Assembly: GCA_017450205.1 (NCBI GenBank)
Contig: JAFSVF010000017.1
Span: forward strand, 1-64,000
DNA: 64,000 nt
From: Bacilli bacterium
GTDB lineage: Bacteria > Bacillota_I > Bacilli_A > RF39 > UBA660
Reading direction: 5' to 3'
Shown: positions 3,325-42,054 of the stretch, piece after piece
Layout of the letters: each line of letters starts with the position of its first letter
How positions within the stretch are numbered: the stretch's first letter is position 1
The notes under the pieces: generated by a model
What the model was told of the DNA's origin: nothing
Database searches by the model: none
The model's input: the letters and a program-made list of their open reading frames with translations, nothing else
Program-made: the position numbers and the translations under genes

Positions 3325-5619
3325 GTGAATAATAGCTATTTAACAAACGAAGAATTAAATCAACTTAATAAGTATTTTAATGCAACAAATTATTTAGCAG
3401 TTGGTCAATTATATTTATTAGATAATCCACTATTAAAAAGAAAGCTTGAATTAAGTGACGTAAAACCAAGATTAGTAGGTCATTGGGGAACAATTCCAGG
3501 ACAAAATTTCTTATTTACTCATTTAAATAGAGCAATTACTAAATATGATCTTAATATGATATATATAGTAGGACCAGGACATGGTGGACAAACAGCTGTT
3601 ACAAATGCATATATGGATCATACATATACTGAAGTTTATCCAGAAATCACTCAAGATGAAGAAGGAATGAGAAAACTATTTAAACAATTCTCTTTTCCAG
3701 GTGGTATTTCAAGTCACGTTGCACCTGAAACTCCAGGTTCTATTCATGAAGGTGGAGAATTAGGATATTCTCTATGTCATGCTTTAGGTGCAGTATTAGA
3801 TAATCCAAATTTAATATGTGCAACTATTGTTGGTGATGGTGAAGCAGAAACTGGACCACTTGCAACTTCATGGAATGTTAATAAATTTATAAATCCAATA
3901 AGTGATGGAGTAGTTTTACCAATACTTCACTTAAATGGATTCAAGATTTCAAATCCAACTGTTCTTTCAAGAATTAGTCATGAAGATATAACTAGTTTAT
4001 TTAAAGGATATGGATGGATACCTTATTTTGTTGAAGGTTCAGATATTAATGAAATGCAAAATAAGATGGCAAAAGTAATGGATGATGTCATTACACAAAT
4101 TAAAAAAATAAAAAAATCTTGTGAAGAAACAGGAAATGTTACAAATATAAAATGGCCAATGATTATTTTTAGAACACCAAAAGGATGGACAGGACCAGCT
4201 GAAGTAGAAGGATCATTTAAAGCTCATCAAGTTCCACTTGCTGTAGATTCAAGTTGCCCTGAAAATATTCAAAGATTAGAAAATTGGATGAGACAATATA
4301 AACCAGAAGAAATATTTAATGAAGATGGTTCAATTAAAGAAGATGTAATATCATTCTTACCTAAAGGTGATAAGAGATTATCTTCTAATCCAATTTCAAA
4401 TGGTGGATTATTGCTAAAAGACTTGGTATTACCTAGAATTGAAGATTATATGTTGGATTGTAATCATGGAGATATAGATGCTCAAGATATGATTGAATTA
4501 GGTAAATATTTAAGAGATGTTATAAAACTAAATGAAGTAAATCATAATTTTAGAATTTTCGGACCAGATGAAGCTCAATCAAATAGACTTAGTCATGTGT
4601 TTGATGAAACAAAGAGACAATGGTTACTAGATATAACTGATAAAGATGAAAATATTGCATCATATGGTAGAGTTATAGACTCATATCTTTCTGAACATTT
4701 AGCAGAAGGTGCTCTTGAAGCTTATCTTTTAACAGGAAGACACGGTTTTATTAATACATATGAATCATTTGCTAGAGTAATAGATTCAATGATTGGTATA
4801 TTTGCTAAGTGGTTAAAAATGTGTAATGAAATACCTTGGAGAAAAGATATTTCTTCACTTAATATTATTGAAACAAGTCATATTTGGCAACAAGACCATA
4901 ATGGATATACACATCAAGATCCAGGTCTTATAAATCATATATTATGTAAGAAAAGGAAGATTACCAACATTTATCTTCCATATGATACAAACTCATTAAT
5001 TTATTATGCAGATAAATGTTTGAAATCTAAAAATCATATAAATGTAATAGTTGCATCTAAGCATCCAAGACCACAATGGTTAACAAAAGAAGAAACAATA
5101 AAACATTGTGAAAAAGGACTAGGAATATGGAAATTTGCAAGTGATGAAAATCCTCAAGTTATTCTTGCTTGTGCAGGAGATACTCCAACACTTGAAGTAT
5201 TAGCAGCAACTAAGATATTAAAAGAAAACAATATTAGAGTAAGAGTAATAAACGTCGTAGATTTACAAAAACTTGAATCAATTAGTGATGAAGAATATGA
5301 TTCATTATTCTTAAGAGGAGTACCAACAATATTCTCATTCCATGGATATCCAAATGTTATAAGACAACTTACTTATAATAGAGATAGAGATTATGATGTA
5401 ATTCATGGATATGAAGAAGAAGGATGTATTACAACTCCATTTGATATGAGAGTAGTTAATTATATTGATAGATATCATTTAGTAATTGATACAGTTAGAT
5501 TATTGGGAAATACTAATATAGAACTTAAAAACTATTGTATATCTAAATTAAAAGAACATCATGATTTAATACGTTCAACTGGAAAAGAAATAGATGAAGT
5601 AGAAAACTTTAGATGGTAG
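3325..5619 (+). CDS. xfp: Xylulose-5-phosphate/fructose-6-phosphate phosphoketolase
   Basis: Thiamine-diphosphate enzyme that cleaves xylulose 5-phosphate (and often fructose 6-phosphate) with phosphate to acetyl phosphate plus an aldose phosphate, the key step of the phosphoketolase pathway. Seen: GHWGTIPGQNFLFTHLNRAI, GPGHGG, FPGGISSHVAPETPGSIHEG and the ThDP-binding GDGEAETGPLATSWN. About 764 residues, close to the usual 790. GTG at 3325 is chosen because AAAGGGTG ends seven bases before it; an in-frame GTG at 3316 overlaps that ribosome site. A TATAAT at 3296-3301 gives it its own promoter. It stands as a single-gene unit. Confidence 0.96.
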   Translation: MNNSYLTNEELNQLNKYFNATNYLAVGQLYLLDNPLLKRKLELSDVKPRLVGHWGTIPGQNFLFTHLNRAITKYDLNMIYIVGPGHGGQTAVTNAYMDHTYTEVYPEITQDEEGMRKLFKQFSFPGGISSHVAPETPGSIHEGGELGYSLCHALGAVLDNPNLICATIVGDGEAETGPLATSWNVNKFINPISDGVVLPILHLNGFKISNPTVLSRISHEDITSLFKGYGWIPYFVEGSDINEMQNKMAKVMDDVITQIKKIKKSCEETGNVTNIKWPMIIFRTPKGWTGPAEVEGSFKAHQVPLAVDSSCPENIQRLENWMRQYKPEEIFNEDGSIKEDVISFLPKGDKRLSSNPISNGGLLLKDLVLPRIEDYMLDCNHGDIDAQDMIELGKYLRDVIKLNEVNHNFRIFGPDEAQSNRLSHVFDETKRQWLLDITDKDENIASYGRVIDSYLSEHLAEGALEAYLLTGRHGFINTYESFARVIDSMIGIFAKWLKMCNEIPWRKDISSLNIIETSHIWQQDHNGYTHQDPGLINHILCKKRKITNIYLPYDTNSLIYYADKCLKSKNHINVIVASKHPRPQWLTKEETIKHCEKGLGIWKFASDENPQVILACAGDTPTLEVLAATKILKENNIRVRVINVVDLQKLESISDEEYDSLFLRGVPTIFSFHGYPNVIRQLTYNRDRDYDVIHGYEEEGCITTPFDMRVVNYIDRYHLVIDTVRLLGNTNIELKNYCISKLKEHHDLIRSTGKEIDEVENFRW

Positions 5620-14888: not shown

Positions 14889-14889
14889 A

Positions 14890-14914
14890 AAACTGGAAAA
14901 CTTCCAGTTTTTTA
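14890..14914 (+). terminator. Intrinsic terminator after the transporter gene
   Basis: AAACTGGAA and TTCCAGTTT form a tight stem followed by T residues. Confidence 0.85.
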
Positions 14915-14933
14915 TTTGACTAAAATCGTAAGT

Positions 14934-14939
14934 TATAAT
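14934..14939 (+). promoter_or_regulatory. -10 element for the T-box-pheST transcript
   Basis: TATAAT just upstream of the leader RNA. A TTGACT at 14916 is only 12 bases away, too close to be its -35 box. Confidence 0.5.
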
Positions 14940-14946
14940 AAAATAC

Positions 14947-15161
14947 ATTTAGCAATGCAGTGATTATGTCACAGTAGTTATATGAAAAATCATTAGAGAA
15001 TGGATATCACCGGCTGAAAGTATCCTTGAACTTTTATATAATGAAATTTCAACATAGGAGTATTGATCGTAGATACGCGTTAAGTATATAAAGATGATTA
15101 TAAAGTCATGAAGTAGGATGGTACCACGAGTAATTTCGTTCCTATATTCATGGCTTTTTTT
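14947..15161 (+). promoter_or_regulatory. T-box riboswitch of the phenylalanyl-tRNA synthetase operon
   Basis: Leader that reads tRNA-Phe charging. Seen: the stem I distal-loop motif CCGGCTGAAAG near 15010-15020, a candidate specifier TTC (Phe) at 15048-15050, and the T-box sequence AGGATGGTACCACG near 15115-15128 whose bulge pairs with the free CCA end of uncharged tRNA. The T-box lies inside the 5' arm and loop of a terminator (15104-15161), so binding of uncharged tRNA should favour the antiterminator and expression of pheS-pheT. Exact specifier placement is from sequence pattern, not a folded model. Confidence 0.9.
15104..15161 (+). terminator. Conditional terminator of the T-box leader
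   Basis: AGTCATGAA...TAGGA pairs with TCCTA...TTCATGGCT, followed by seven T residues. Mutually exclusive with the antiterminator that uses the T-box sequence. Confidence 0.8.
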
Positions 15162-20458: not shown

Positions 20459-22543
20459 ATGGACATATTAAAAGGTTTAAATAAAGAGCAACTTATGGCA
20501 GTAAAACATATAGATGGACCATGTCTTGTTATGGCGGGAGCAGGATCAGGTAAAACTAGAGTTTTGACAACAAGAATAGTAAATTTACTTGAAAATGGAA
20601 TAGATGATTATAATATTTTAGCAATTACATTTACTAATAAAGCATCTAAAGAAATGAGAGAACGTATTACTAAAATGTATGGAGAAACATCAGCATTTAT
20701 TGGTACATTCCATGCTTTTGGTTTAACTATATTAAGAAGATATTATGGTCTTTGTGGATTAGAAAAGAACTTCACTATAATTGATAGTGATGATTCTTTA
20801 TCAATTATAAAGAAAATATTAAAATCTAAGAATTTAGATCCTAAAAAATATAGTCCATATGCAATTCGTAATAGAATATCTTTTATTAAAAATGAAGATT
20901 TAAGTGAAGTTGAAATTTCAAGAACTATGAATAGTCCATTAGATAAAATATATATAGAAATATATCATAAATATCAAAAAACATTAGAAGAATCTAATGT
21001 TGTAGATTTTGATGACCTACTATTAAAACCAGTTAGATTATTTGAAAAAGATCCAGATATCTTGTCAGAATATCAAAATAGATATAGATACATATTAGTA
21101 GATGAGTATCAAGATACAAACCCAGTACAATATAAACTTTGCAAACTACTATCATCTAAATATAGAAATATCTTTGTAGTAGGAGATATGAATCAAAGTA
21201 TATATGCTTTTAGACAAGCAGATTATAAAAATATTGAATATTTTGAAAGAGATTTTAAAGATTGTACAGTATATAAACTTGAAGAAAACTATCGTAGTAC
21301 AAATAATATCTTAAATGCTGCAAATCAAGTTATTAAAAATAATACTCACAGAAAAGATTTAAAACTATGGAGCGAAAAAGGTGATGGCTTAAAAATTAAA
21401 TATAAAAGATGCTATGAAGAAAAAGATGAAGCTCATTATGTAGTTGGCGAAATAAAAAAACTACTTGATGAAGGTGTAAGAAGAAAGGATATAGCAATCC
21501 TTTATAGAACTAATGGTCAATCGCGTGTTATCGAAGAAGAAATAGTTAGAAATAACATTCCATATAAAGTTGTTGGTTCAGTATATTTCTATAACAGAAA
21601 AGAAATTAAAGATCTTATTGCATACTTAAGACTTATATATAATCATAATGATTCAATTTCTTTAAGAAGAATAATAAATGTTCCTAAAAGAGGAATTGGT
21701 CAAACTTCTGTAGATAACTTAAGTGATGAAGCTGAACTTCAAGAAATTTCAATGTATGAATGCCTATCAAGTAAAAAAGAACTTGAATTTAAAAAACTAA
21801 TTGAAGAATTAACTGAAGATTCAAAGAATATGAGTTTAACATCATTAATTGATACAATCATAACTAAGACAGGAATCAAAGATGAATTACTATCAGAAGA
21901 ATCAATCGAAGCTGAACTTAGATTAGATAACTTAATGGAATTTAAATCAGTTACCGAAAACTTCGAAGAAAATGAAGGCATTGTTGATTTAGGTGCATTT
22001 CTTGAAGAAGTTTCATTAGTTGCTGATATGTCACAACATCGTGAAGATGGTGATGAAATAACATTAATGACTATACATGGTGCAAAAGGTCTTGAATTTG
22101 ATGTGGTATTCCTAGTTGGTATGGAAGAAGGATTATTTCCACATTCTAATGCATTTAATGAAGAAGATGGAGTTGAAGAAGAAAGACGACTTTGCTATGT
22201 AGGTATTACACGTGCTAAAGAAATACTTTATATGACAAATACAAAAAGAAGACTTCTATATGGTCAAACAAAAGAAAATACAGTATCTAGATTTATAAAA
22301 GAAATTGATGATTCATTATTAGATAATCAAAATGTTGGTGATACATCGCTTGAAAAACCAATTGATTCTAGTAAAATGTATGTTGAAGGTAATAATGATG
22401 ATATAAGTATTGGAGATACTATTAGTCATGAAACATTAGGGCTTGGAGTAGTAGTAAAAGTAGATGGATCTCTAATAGATGTTGCCTTTAAATCAGGAAT
22501 AAAAAAACTGATGAAAAATCATAAGAGTATTAAGAAAGTGTAG
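20459..22543 (+). CDS. pcrA: ATP-dependent DNA helicase PcrA/UvrD
   Basis: Superfamily 1A 3'-5' helicase used in repair and in clearing proteins from DNA. Seen: Walker A GAGSGKTRV near residue 25, ITFTNKASKEM (motif Ia), DEYQDTNPVQY (motif II), VVGDMNQSIYAFRQA (motif III), TIHGAKGLEFDVVFLVG (motif V) and RRLCYVGITRAKE (motif VI). The C-terminal 45 residues keep the small PcrA domain (HETLGLGVVVKVDG ... GIKKLMKNH) that contacts RNA polymerase in relatives. 694 residues, slightly short because the C-terminal linker is brief. Confidence 0.96.
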   Translation: MDILKGLNKEQLMAVKHIDGPCLVMAGAGSGKTRVLTTRIVNLLENGIDDYNILAITFTNKASKEMRERITKMYGETSAFIGTFHAFGLTILRRYYGLCGLEKNFTIIDSDDSLSIIKKILKSKNLDPKKYSPYAIRNRISFIKNEDLSEVEISRTMNSPLDKIYIEIYHKYQKTLEESNVVDFDDLLLKPVRLFEKDPDILSEYQNRYRYILVDEYQDTNPVQYKLCKLLSSKYRNIFVVGDMNQSIYAFRQADYKNIEYFERDFKDCTVYKLEENYRSTNNILNAANQVIKNNTHRKDLKLWSEKGDGLKIKYKRCYEEKDEAHYVVGEIKKLLDEGVRRKDIAILYRTNGQSRVIEEEIVRNNIPYKVVGSVYFYNRKEIKDLIAYLRLIYNHNDSISLRRIINVPKRGIGQTSVDNLSDEAELQEISMYECLSSKKELEFKKLIEELTEDSKNMSLTSLIDTIITKTGIKDELLSEESIEAELRLDNLMEFKSVTENFEENEGIVDLGAFLEEVSLVADMSQHREDGDEITLMTIHGAKGLEFDVVFLVGMEEGLFPHSNAFNEEDGVEEERRLCYVGITRAKEILYMTNTKRRLLYGQTKENTVSRFIKEIDDSLLDNQNVGDTSLEKPIDSSKMYVEGNNDDISIGDTISHETLGLGVVVKVDGSLIDVAFKSGIKKLMKNHKSIKKV

Positions 22544-37263: not shown

Positions 37264-37308
37264 TAAAAAATAAAATTAAATATTGATATAATAAAGTTGG
37301 TGATAAAT

Positions 37309-38301
37309 ATGAATCAAGAAAAAATAGAAATAATTAAAACAATCGTATCTAATTTTTCAAAAGTGTTAAATTTAAATGAAGAAGATTTAAAAGGTTTTAT
37401 AAATGAAATTATTAATCTTAGAGAAAATGATGCAATTGATTTATTAATTGTTCAAATACATAGACTTTTAGAAAGTAAAAGAATAAGTGAAAAAGATGTA
37501 TTTGATAATATTGATTTACTAACAAAGATTTCAGAAAATTATAAAACTAAAGAAGATATATTAAATAGATATGAATTTTTAAAATCAATGAATATGCTTT
37601 ACACTAATACTCCACTTGAAGAAAATCATGAGATAGTTTTAGAGGTATTCGATATGTTCAATGAACTAATTGGAACTGATTATGATGCTTATTATACTGG
37701 TGGATTAATGGGATATATTAAGACAAAACATAAATTAGAAAGATATCATGGAGATTTAGATTTATTTATAAATGAAAATGGATTAGAAGACCTATATAAA
37801 TTAGTTAAAGATAGTGATTCTTTTGAATTTATAAGTAATATGGATGATAAAGAAGAAAATGGCCATGAATTTAAAATTCAATATAAGGGAACTAAAATGA
37901 GTATTGGTTTATTCTTGTTTGAAAGAAAAAATGATGGTGAAATAGTTATAAAAGAATATTATCATAAAGATAACAAACCAGAAAAAGAACTATTGGTTAA
38001 TGAACAACACTTATTACCAGAATATGCAAATTTAGTATTTAGCAAAAATATCGAAGAGTATAATGGTAAACTTTATAAAATGCAAAGTTTAGAAAGTATT
38101 TATAATGTTAAAAAGAATTCTAGACCAAAAGATAAATATGATGCAAGTATCATTAAAGACTATGTTGATTTAAGTATTGACTCTCGATTGGATGAGCTAA
38201 AGAAAGAAAACTATCAAGTTAAAGGCAATGATGCAAGTAATTCCATTGTTGCTGATTTAGAAGAAAAAATAAACAATAAAGAAAGCATTAAAAGCTTATA
38301 A
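37309..38301 (+). CDS. Nucleotidyltransferase-fold protein
   Basis: 330 residues. An N-terminal helical region of about 100 residues precedes a minimal-nucleotidyltransferase-like core with YYTGGLMGYI near 127-136 and RYHGDLDLFI near 144-153 (the GG ... DxD pattern), and later SRPKDKYDASIIKDYVDL near 280, typical of aminoglycoside-nucleotidyltransferase-like proteins. The substrate is unknown. Good GGTGATAAAT ribosome site; TGATATAATAA just upstream is a plausible promoter. Ten bases before the next gene. Confidence 0.65.
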   Translation: MNQEKIEIIKTIVSNFSKVLNLNEEDLKGFINEIINLRENDAIDLLIVQIHRLLESKRISEKDVFDNIDLLTKISENYKTKEDILNRYEFLKSMNMLYTNTPLEENHEIVLEVFDMFNELIGTDYDAYYTGGLMGYIKTKHKLERYHGDLDLFINENGLEDLYKLVKDSDSFEFISNMDDKEENGHEFKIQYKGTKMSIGLFLFERKNDGEIVIKEYYHKDNKPEKELLVNEQHLLPEYANLVFSKNIEEYNGKLYKMQSLESIYNVKKNSRPKDKYDASIIKDYVDLSIDSRLDELKKENYQVKGNDASNSIVADLEEKINNKESIKSL

Positions 38302-38310
38302 GGAGAATTT

Positions 38311-38790
38311 ATGAAAATAGTTTATATGCATCACGCAGAAAGAGCAATCGGGGAAAATCATTCAGACCCAGAATTAAGACAACTTGAAGATATAACTGAA
38401 GTAGGAATTAAGTCAGCTGAACTTCTTGCTGAACGTATAAAAAATCAAAATATAACTGCAATTGTAACATCACCATATTTAAGATGTAAACATACTGCAG
38501 AAATCATTAATAAGTATCATAACGTTCCAATAATCGAAGATGAAAGATTTAATGAAATGGGATGGAAAGAAGAATGGAAAGATTTACTTAAAAGAAACAT
38601 GGAAGCCATTGATGATATTTATAATAAATATAATGAGGAAGACACAATTATATGTGTAACAAGTGGAGTAAATCTATCAGCATTTGTTTGCTATTTCTAT
38701 AATATCGAACCAACAAATGATGTTCCTTGGTGCCAAGGCGGAGATATCTCTCCAGTTAATTTTACAAAGGGTAAAAAAATGTTAGATTAA
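38311..38790 (+). CDS. Histidine-phosphatase-like protein with altered active site
   Basis: 159 residues with the phosphoglycerate-mutase-like fold. Seen: MKIVYMHHAER at the start, where RHG is expected, SPYLRCKHTAEII near residue 54 (the conserved Arg is kept), ERFNEMGWKEEW near 79, and VTSGVNLSAF near 111 where the second catalytic His is replaced by Ser. It keeps one catalytic His but has lost two of four key residues, so phosphatase activity is doubtful. Co-transcribed with the nucleotidyltransferase-like gene. Confidence 0.75.
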   Translation: MKIVYMHHAERAIGENHSDPELRQLEDITEVGIKSAELLAERIKNQNITAIVTSPYLRCKHTAEIINKYHNVPIIEDERFNEMGWKEEWKDLLKRNMEAIDDIYNKYNEEDTIICVTSGVNLSAFVCYFYNIEPTNDVPWCQGGDISPVNFTKGKKMLD

Positions 38791-38819
38791 GAATAAATAG
38801 AAATATTTATTCTTTTTTT
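38791..38819 (+). terminator. Intrinsic terminator
   Basis: GAATAAAT and ATTTATTC form a stem right after the stop codon, followed by seven T residues. Confidence 0.75.
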
Positions 38820-38827
38820 GTTATAAT
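38819..38827 (+). promoter_or_regulatory. Extended -10 promoter of murB
   Basis: TGTTATAAT whose TG overlaps the end of the terminator T-run; murB starts at 38848. Confidence 0.65.
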
Positions 38828-38847
38828 TTATATAAGGAAGAGTTTAT

Positions 38848-39747
38848 ATGAAAAGAATAGTTAAAGAAATAATAAATCTTGATATAGGCAAGGTTGAAGA
38901 AAAAGTAAGTTTAAAAAAAAATACAACTTATAAAGTTGGTGGTAATGCATTAGCATTTGTATACCCAAATGATATTGATTCATTAATCAAGTTACTAAAA
39001 TATTTAAGAAATAATAATATAAAGCATATGATTTTAGGTAATGGATCAAATGTAGTATTTAAAGATACGACTTATAATGGAATAATCATAAAATTAGATA
39101 TTTTAAATAAATACAAAATTAAAGAAAATATAATAATTGCTGAATCTGGAGTAAATTTAATTCCATTATCATTTAAAGCAATTGATTTATCTCTTGAGGG
39201 ATTAGAATTTGCATGTGGTATACCTGGGTCGGTTGGTGGATGTTTATACATGAATGCTGGAGCTTATAAATCTGACATGAGTAATATTGTAAAGAGTGTA
39301 AAAGCATTAACACCAGATTTTAAAATTAAGATTTTTAAAAATAAAGATTTAGAATTTGGTTATAGAGATTCGTTCTTTAAACATCATAAGGATTATATTG
39401 TATTAGAAGTAACATTTGAGTTAAAAAAAGGTAAAAAAGAAGAACTCATTGAACTTGCAAATGATAGAAAAAGAAGAAGATTAGAATCACAGCCACTTGA
39501 ATATCCAAGTGCAGGCAGTGTATTTAGAAATCCACCTGATAACTTTAGTGGTAAATTAATTGAAGACTTAGGTCTTAAAGGATATTCAATCGGTGGAGCA
39601 AAGGTTAGTGAAAAACATGCTAATTTTATAATTAATTATAATAATGCTACCGCAAGTGATATTAGAAAATTAATCAAATATGTTCATACAAGAGTAAAGA
39701 AAAAATATGATATAGATTTGTTCATCGAACAAGAATTTATTGATTAA
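38848..39747 (+). CDS. murB: UDP-N-acetylenolpyruvoylglucosamine reductase
   Basis: FAD enzyme that reduces UDP-GlcNAc-enolpyruvate to UDP-MurNAc in peptidoglycan synthesis. Seen: KNTTYKVGGNALAFVYP near residue 24, LGNGSNVVFKDTTYNGIIIK near 62, CGIPGSVGGCLYMNAGAYKS near 121 and YPSAGSVFRNP near 219 with the catalytic Ser. 299 residues, type II MurB. Shows the cell makes a murein wall. Start after AAGGAAGAGTTTAT. Confidence 0.96.
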   Translation: MKRIVKEIINLDIGKVEEKVSLKKNTTYKVGGNALAFVYPNDIDSLIKLLKYLRNNNIKHMILGNGSNVVFKDTTYNGIIIKLDILNKYKIKENIIIAESGVNLIPLSFKAIDLSLEGLEFACGIPGSVGGCLYMNAGAYKSDMSNIVKSVKALTPDFKIKIFKNKDLEFGYRDSFFKHHKDYIVLEVTFELKKGKKEELIELANDRKRRRLESQPLEYPSAGSVFRNPPDNFSGKLIEDLGLKGYSIGGAKVSEKHANFIINYNNATASDIRKLIKYVHTRVKKKYDIDLFIEQEFID

Positions 39748-39759
39748 ATGTAAATTGTT

Positions 39760-39818
39760 AAAAAAGTGTAAAATTAAATGTATTTTTTTAAAAGTACTGA
39801 AATTTACACTTTTTTTTA
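39760..39818 (+). terminator. Intrinsic terminator of murB
   Basis: AAAAAAGTGTAAA and TTTACACTTTTTT form a long stem with a 26-base loop region, followed by T residues. Confidence 0.6.
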
Positions 39819-39845
39819 GTATATTCTAATTAAGATATATATGGT

Positions 39846-40505
39846 GTATAGGAGGTGTAATAACTATAATGCTTAAGAGAAAAGCTTATACATGTATTGC
39901 AAATGCTGCAAAACCAGTAATGGAGGTATGTAGAAGCGGAACTTTATAAACCCATTCGATTCTTATATAACTTGAATTGAATGGGACTAGTTAAATATTA
40001 AAATTATCAAAGGAATTTAATATCCAATGCAAAGAGTTATTTGGTTATATGTTTTCCGAGAATAATAATTCAAAAACATATATAAAATAAATCTTCAAAA
40101 GTAAATTATTCTAAACTAAGATGCTGGTGTAGAAATATTGACTGACGAATATTCCATTAGATAAATATGTAAAGACTAGTTCCTTATTGAAGATAAAAGT
40201 TCAATAAATAATTAATTAAATAAGAAATGCTATTTATGAATCTTAAAGAAAGATTTAAAAAAACAATATAAACTATAAATTATACTAAGTTAAGAAAAAT
40301 GTAAATGAGAGGTTGATGTTAACTAGATACCTATAATCTTTACGAGAGAGTACTAGTATACGTGACAATTTATTGGAGTTTATATTTATGTAAAAGAGGT
40401 ATTGTGCATTTACTTAAAACAAATTAATTATAATTTTAAAAAAATATAGAAATTACACCTGTATATCTTATATAAGAGAGAATAAATAAAATATTCTCTC
40501 TTTTT
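39846..40505 (+). ncRNA. Candidate large structured non-coding RNA (about 650 nt)
   Basis: The 830-base gap between murB and the next gene holds no long frame. AGGTGTAAT (39853-39861) pairs perfectly with ATTACACCT (40452-40460) and the flanks TGTATA/TATATC extend the helix, closing about 590 bases. Inside are CCCATTC/GAATGGG (about 39951-39984), TTATTGAA/TTCAATAA (about 40181-40208) and GTAAATG/CATTTAC. It ends in a terminator hairpin at 40475-40505. RNase P, tmRNA and group II intron signatures are not seen. Family not identified; size and closed ends fit ornate large RNAs. A 26-codon ORF (39869-39949) lies near the 5' end. Confidence 0.6.
40475..40505 (+). terminator. Intrinsic terminator of the large RNA
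   Basis: AGAGAGAATA and TATTCTCTCT form a perfect 10-bp stem with a seven-base loop, followed by T residues. Confidence 0.85.
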
Positions 40506-40575
40506 ATATGTTTTATTGACTATAATATTATTCTCTTTATATAATTACTTTAGGATATAGTGTATAGGAGGTGTT

Positions 40576-42054
40576 ATGAAAAAACTTTTAAAATGCGTGA
40601 GTGTTTTTGTTTTGGTATTCGCATTAATGCCTATAGTTAAGGCTGATGGACCTGCTGAAGCAATTACATCAGGAAATCTAACTCTAAAGAGTATTCCACT
40701 TACTAAAGAAAAAGATAGAATGTGGTATCCAAATGTTCAAGAAGAGTTTAGTGAATGGGATGATTATGACCTAGATATTGATGATGAGGATATTAATAAA
40801 GGTGTTCTAAAAAAGTGGAATGAAGAACATGATGAAATAATCGCTACAAAAAACGTAACTATTACATATGAATATGATGAGGCAATCAAAAAGGTTGTTG
40901 ATGGACTTATTGCTAAATTAGGAGATAATCCTATTGAATTTGAATTAAATGATGTTGAAGCATTAACATATAGAATTTCTGCAGATTCATATTTAACTGA
41001 TCATCCTGAATACCAAGGTGAAATTGATTTTCCATTCTTCTTTTCTAATTTTTCATTAGACTTAATGAAAACAATAGAATATAAGAATTTCAATTTACTT
41101 GTTGGAGCAGGTGGAGGATACTATTTAAATAATTCAAATATGGGAGAATTATCATTCATATATGATGATGTGTTCTATGGATGTGGTCCTACCACAATTA
41201 TTCAATACAATGCAGTTGTATTTATTCCTGAAGGAGCAACTGATGTACCAAAAGCTATAAAAGATAGATTATCTAAATATTTTAACGTTAAAAGTGTATC
41301 AGATACATATGGTAATATTGGACCTTTAACTGCTAAAGATTTAGCAGAAATCAAAGACAGACAATACTATCAAACAAATAAAAATGATTCGTCTTCTGTA
41401 GCTGGTCAATATGCTACAGAAGACGAATATATAGCCTCAATAGACTATAATACTTTTATATATGGTGATTATGCTACTAAAGATTCACCAGTTTATTTTG
41501 TTGAAATGGCAGATGGAGCTGTAGCTGCAGTTGTAGTTTATGAAGATTCAGAAAAGAATGCTGATGAGAGAGAGTTTAAAACATCAGATGTAGGAACTGG
41601 AATTGAAGTATCAGTTGATGGAATTATTCCATTAGATACACTTATTCATGTTGCTAGAGTTACATCTGGTGATGAATACGATAAAATAGTAAAAATATTA
41701 AAAAATAATAATGTTGATATGTTTGATTTAAAAATGATTACAAAATCGAATGAAACTATCACTAAATTAGATGATGGAAAATTTAGAGTAAAATTACCTA
41801 TTAAAGAAGAATTTAAAGGTAAAGAGTTAAAAGTATATTATGTAGGTGATGATGATAAAGTTGAAGAATATAAAGTAACTATCTCAGATGATGGTAATTA
41901 TGCAATATTTGAAACTGATCACTTTAGTATTTATACTTTAGCAGCAGGAGCTGCAACTAAAAATCCTAAAACAGGAGATAGTATTATGATATATGTAGCT
42001 ATACTTATATTATCTTCTGCATATCTATTAACAAGAAAATTAAGAAAAAACTAA
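40576..42054 (+). CDS. Secreted surface protein with C-terminal NPKTG sorting signal
   Basis: 492 residues. Seen: a signal peptide (KKLLKCVSVFVLVFALMPIV, cut near residue 24), an acidic extracellular region, and a C-terminal sorting signal: NPKTGD at 463-468, a hydrophobic helix and the basic tail RKLRKN. This predicts covalent anchoring by a sortase that accepts NPxTG; no sortase gene is in the window. Residues 380-450 (LPIKEEFKGKELKVYYVG, FETDHFSIYTLA) resemble a bacterial Ig-like or extracellular beta domain. Strong GGAGGTG site. Ligand or role unknown. Confidence 0.85.
   Translation: MKKLLKCVSVFVLVFALMPIVKADGPAEAITSGNLTLKSIPLTKEKDRMWYPNVQEEFSEWDDYDLDIDDEDINKGVLKKWNEEHDEIIATKNVTITYEYDEAIKKVVDGLIAKLGDNPIEFELNDVEALTYRISADSYLTDHPEYQGEIDFPFFFSNFSLDLMKTIEYKNFNLLVGAGGGYYLNNSNMGELSFIYDDVFYGCGPTTIIQYNAVVFIPEGATDVPKAIKDRLSKYFNVKSVSDTYGNIGPLTAKDLAEIKDRQYYQTNKNDSSSVAGQYATEDEYIASIDYNTFIYGDYATKDSPVYFVEMADGAVAAVVVYEDSEKNADEREFKTSDVGTGIEVSVDGIIPLDTLIHVARVTSGDEYDKIVKILKNNNVDMFDLKMITKSNETITKLDDGKFRVKLPIKEEFKGKELKVYYVGDDDKVEEYKVTISDDGNYAIFETDHFSIYTLAAGAATKNPKTGDSIMIYVAILILSSAYLLTRKLRKN

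Follow-up and report, generated by a model that had tools for sequence, protein, structure and literature searches.

Which kind of element occupies positions 39748-40575 of the window (the whole stretch of 64,000 nucleotides from a Bacilli bacterium that was analyzed), a gap with murB on one side and the gene for a 492-aa surface protein on the other? As the earlier note had reported, a long ORF is absent, the gap being devoid of ORFs of at least 60 aa. We consider it likely that a structured non-coding RNA of about 670 nt is encoded here by a free-standing gene and works with the surface gene as a small unit; both the transcription of the RNA and its joint action with the surface gene we infer from the sequence. 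The RNA gene would be flanked by a promoter-like site and a terminator of its own, and its product would contain three or more internal domains enclosed by a closing helix (Table 1). The large element described in the earlier note is present, but its bounds had to be shifted: the transcript is predicted to extend from about 39832 to about 40505.

Table 1. Features of the RNA locus and of its downstream neighbor (coordinates refer to the window)
Feature	Position	Strand	Remarks
Promoter-like site of the RNA, CTGAAA-17-TATATT	39797-39825	+	predicted start near 39832
Candidate structured non-coding RNA, about 670 nt	39832-40505	+	fold z about -6; homolog 84-85% identical vs 60% at fourfold sites
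Leader motif GGTGTATAGGAGGTGT	39843-39858	+	differs little from the surface gene's ribosome-binding leader
Closing helix, 5' arm	39854-39868	+	13 pairs, mean probability 0.89 in both species
26-codon ORF (MLKRKAYTCIANAAKPVMEVCRSGTL)	39869-39949	+	open in the homolog, without coding signature
Branched 5' domain	39884-39937	+	closed by 39884-39893/39928-39937
11-bp hairpin CCATTCGATTC/GAATTGAATGG	39952-39984	+	probability 0.99 and 0.95 in the two species
Central domain	39986-40180	+	closed by ACTAGTT 39986-39992/GACTAGT 40174-40180
3' domain	40221-40416	+	closed by 40221-40230/40406-40416; three compensatory changes among 10 pairs
Closing helix, 3' arm	40445-40459	+	
Intrinsic terminator	40474-40505	+	stem 40474-40502 and T-run
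Separate promoter of the surface gene, TTGACT-18-TATAAT	40516-40545	+	11/12 consensus bases; kept in the homolog
Sortase-anchored (NPKTG) surface-protein gene	40576-42054	+	constant downstream neighbor of the RNA

The predicted transcript folds with a minimum free energy (MFE) of about -141 kcal/mol, compared to -105 for dinucleotide shuffles. Against shuffled sequence, the z-score is -6.0 for the window and -5.8 for a homolog from a second species (see below). The minus strand folds as well (z -6.4 and -6.8, respectively). The strand was therefore assigned from the terminator and the upstream promoter-like site, both of which point to plus, the fold z-score being uninformative in this respect. 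The 9-bp complement on which the earlier note based its claim that the ends of the RNA meet (39853-39861/40452-40460) is found in the sequence and also in the MFE structure, where it extends inward to form the closing helix. A bare end-to-end complement of 9 bases is not very rare, as it occurs in 125 of 5000 shuffles of this AT-rich sequence. The full closure goes beyond that, with 27 end-to-end pairs in the window and 25 in the homolog, numbers that were equalled by 0/100 and 1/100 of the respective shuffles.

Among 11 genomes of the genus, one clear homolog was detected, which belongs to a second species (genome G007, C8:35222-35880). The RNAs of the two species are about 84-85% identical (549 of 654 aligned positions; 85% over 676 bases). 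In the collinear region of this genome pair, identity is 60% at fourfold-degenerate sites (n=3148) and 68% at third codon positions. A T-box region (14889-15117) is as conserved as the RNA (86%), and the surface protein diverges much more (47% identity). Judged by an identity that far above neutral, the RNA is under purifying selection. The longest conserved block, 44 identical bases at 40022-40065, is located inside the central domain.

For an assessment of structure conservation, each sequence was folded alone and its structure was projected onto the other, with permutation as control. In the two directions, 172 pairs were kept versus 165 expected (p 0.011) and 182 versus 174.7 (p 0.004), with 4 double changes versus 1.45 expected (p 0.048) and 5 versus 1.07 (p 0.0025). 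Three of the double changes fall into the helix that closes the 3' domain, and two others preserve pairing of the terminator stem. According to pair probabilities, the two species have twelve likely helices in common. Conservation and covariation in relatives, on which the earlier note had made its proposal depend, are thus found: the one homolog is conserved and folds similarly, and both a long helix and the terminator show compensatory changes. Such base changes are what a structured non-coding RNA of any kind should display, but they are modest here and come from just two sequences, and only about half of the pairs (104 of about 210) are common to both single-sequence folds, which weighs against our explanation. 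In the closing helix, where covariation would have been support according to the earlier note, two one-sided wobble changes are seen. In an alternative outer register (39843-39848/40454-40459), the pair 39843-40459 changes from G-C to A-U, as read from the alignment. Both registers may exist.

The palindrome ACTAGT is found three times within conserved blocks of the RNA (39986-39991, 40175-40180, and 40352-40357). The predicted fold pairs two of the copies, and the third might be used for a tertiary contact or for dimerization.

Taken together, the folding, the purifying selection, the compensatory changes, the terminator, and the exclusion of a coding sequence (see below) support a large structured RNA whose ends pair. 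We regard this as well supported for a two-sequence case, although proof of the full fold is beyond the reach of two sequences.

The intrinsic terminator proposed earlier proved to be real (1 found vs 0.1 expected). The promoter-like site of the RNA is weak by consensus and no better than chance (9 such sites found vs 9.2 expected), which counts against a free-standing gene; its hexamers and spacing are kept in the homolog (L084:1478-1506). The terminator separates the RNA from the surface gene, and the RNA has its constant position directly 5' of that gene in both species. This arrangement would also fit a very long cis-acting leader with the terminator as attenuator, allowing signal-dependent read-through into the surface gene. 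We consider this rather unlikely. A near-consensus promoter that belongs to the surface gene follows the terminator in both species, an anti-terminator alternative was not seen, and 600 nt would be unusually long for a leader.

The free-standing RNA gene and the surface gene share about 23 bases just after each promoter, in both predicted transcripts (23-nt match, E 7e-5). Whole genomes were searched for AGTGTATAGGAGGTGT, allowing for a maximum of two mismatches. Sites with one mismatch or none number just two in each of the two genomes, one at the RNA and one at the surface gene, and are absent from the other nine species of the genus. This points to a leader that was duplicated and has been kept since before the split of the two species. 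Shared regulation, competition, and mere descent are all possible readings of the shared leader, and as a duplication relic without present function it would lend no weight to our explanation. The RNA probably controls the surface gene or shares its regulation. The start codon (ATG) of the surface gene corresponds to ATA in the RNA, which might thus present a copy of the surface-gene leader within a stable closed fold. Translation of the surface protein would be adjusted in this way, the copy either binding the factor that targets the surface-gene leader or competing for it. We put such competition forward as the most likely mechanism, but only tentatively. Antisense pairing of the 3' arm of the RNA with the start region of the surface gene was also considered (-13.7 kcal/mol) and was dropped as neither specific nor exceptional, ranking second of 63 start regions.

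The surface gene, which the earlier note had named as one neighbor, is located directly downstream of the RNA in both species and is its constant neighbor. The other neighbor, murB, is not conserved: in the second species, the gene order is rpsI, RNA, surface-protein gene, and murB is on a different contig. In the window, a nucleotidyltransferase-like ORF, a histidine phosphatase gene, and murB (37297-39747) lie between rpsI and the RNA; these are absent there in the second species. The fact that the RNA has kept its position before the same surface gene although three upstream genes differ indicates that its murB context is incidental. Other species of the genus have different genes after rpsI, with tilS among them in several. 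Judged by gene order, the RNA and the surface-protein gene were inserted as a small unit into a variable spot flanked by rpsI and tilS. This spot adjoins core ribosomal-protein genes. The surface protein ends with the NPKTG sorting signal; sorting-signal matches are weak, just below the cut-off.

A coding function was considered for the 26-codon ORF, which is open in both species and is preceded by GGAGGTG, so that the transcript could be an mRNA for a 26-residue peptide with a long structured 3' UTR. We give this little credence. Substitutions are evenly distributed over the codon positions (3/3/5), six of the seven changed codons alter the residue, the spacing between GGAGGTG and the start is long, and the peptide has no family match. 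Moreover, most of the conservation lies outside the ORF. Because the indels between the two RNAs are not triplets (1, 2, and 5 bases), a long coding sequence is excluded. Together with the even spread of substitutions, they argue against both coding and decay.

It was then asked whether the RNA belongs to a known family. Both copies were compared with Rfam 15 at E<=10, which returned only chance matches to unrelated small RNA families. Models of ROOL, GOLLD, OLE, raiA, RNase P, tmRNA, and group I/II introns, most of which the earlier note had named for such a check, are all unmatched. RNase P, tmRNA, SRP RNA, raiA, and group I/II introns were rejected on this basis, which agrees with the lack of RNase P, tmRNA, SRP RNA, and group II landmarks reported before. 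A possible likeness of GGTATGTAGAAGC to tmRNA was not upheld, as ARAGORN finds no tmRNA. A housekeeping RNA was likewise rejected, since nine other species of the genus are without a detectable copy. The same kind of search easily found a T-box although that match is below its gathering score. A search of the genome with the ROOL model found nothing, a result that is weak by itself given that control genomes are also without ROOL.

The search for further members was extended beyond the genus. BLASTN against 386 genomes of the family returned one true homolog and otherwise many AT-rich chance matches. Covariance models of three RNA domains (R1 against 386 family, R2 against 385 order, and R3 against 395 class genomes) revealed no third copy; low-scoring matches in G003 and G006 were rejected, as they lie inside transporter genes. 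No additional member that convinced us came from phages, plasmids, or viral contigs, the last of which were searched with exact patterns. In other genera, the homologs closest to the surface gene (L149, L150) are not preceded by such an RNA. A 447-kb contig from a viral collection (L179) carries GGTATGTAGAAGCGGAAC at 4427-4444 (18-base match), followed by a hairpin and AGTTAAA as in the RNA; the site belongs to an intergenic region (about 4190-4510) that looks structured, adjoins cellular genes, and has no Rfam match. With a covariance score of 13.6 bits (E 0.47), it is treated as chance.

Size, paired ends, many domains, and conserved unpaired blocks would suit a distant ROOL, GOLLD, or OLE member overlooked by covariance models. 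This is even less probable than a peptide mRNA, as both species lack a match at E<=10, tRNAs are not nearby, and phage or viral relatives were not found. Least credible is a decayed coding sequence, raised in the earlier note, or a mobile-element relic, which the variable spot between rpsI and tilS might suggest but which conservation largely refutes: coding homology with the neighboring surface gene is absent beyond the leader, identity is far above neutral, and folding is preserved.

Two other RNA matches were observed in the window. A T-box leader (14951-15140; 59.8 bits, Rfam gathering score 93; E 7e-13) lies upstream of an ORF called at 15118, and because the match extends past that position, the start of the ORF is probably misplaced. 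A match just over the cut-off at 22148-22245 (Rfam n00280, a Clostridioides difficile sRNA "included into helicase gene") is likely conserved coding sequence and not an sRNA.

Few bacterial RNAs as large and complex as the one described here are known, and most of them are without an assigned function. It is possible, though doubtful, that our RNA represents a new class: a large structured bacterial RNA which carries the ribosome-binding leader of its neighbor in a closed fold and controls a sortase-anchored surface protein. Because position and a shared leader tie it to one surface-protein gene, the connection of a large RNA to a target can be put to the test here. Its existence further suggests that surveys limited to broadly conserved RNAs have overlooked large ones carried by uncultured gut bacteria of narrow lineages. 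Of the likeness to ROOL, GOLLD, and OLE noted earlier, size and closed shape hold and nothing further, so that the family resemblance is architectural only. ROOL is a homo-octameric RNA cage. Our RNA is similar in size to ROOL (RF03087; model of 574 positions) and also has a complex multi-domain fold, but is without a covariance-model match. ROOL was first described from rumen sources (PMC12286853). It is borne by phages or prophages and is often found near tRNAs, whereas our RNA was found in just two species, next to a single surface gene on the chromosome; the window contains no tRNA, the RNA has no phage match, and the neighborhood is that of core ribosomal proteins. GOLLD is larger, with many examples >800 nt (PMC12286853). 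Both RNAs are large, ornate, and without assigned function, but GOLLD is phage-associated and our RNA does not match it. Circularly permuted group II introns (T-large RNA) are likewise large, ORF-less structured bacterial RNAs, of about 900 nt and with group II domains 5/6 present (PMC8637638). Our RNA differs from them in having no group II match. OLE RNA, of about 600 nt, is associated with the proteins OapA/OapB/OapC. An Rfam match to OLE is lacking, but our RNA is also chromosomal, belongs to a Gram-positive lineage, and shares with OLE the long end-to-end helices.
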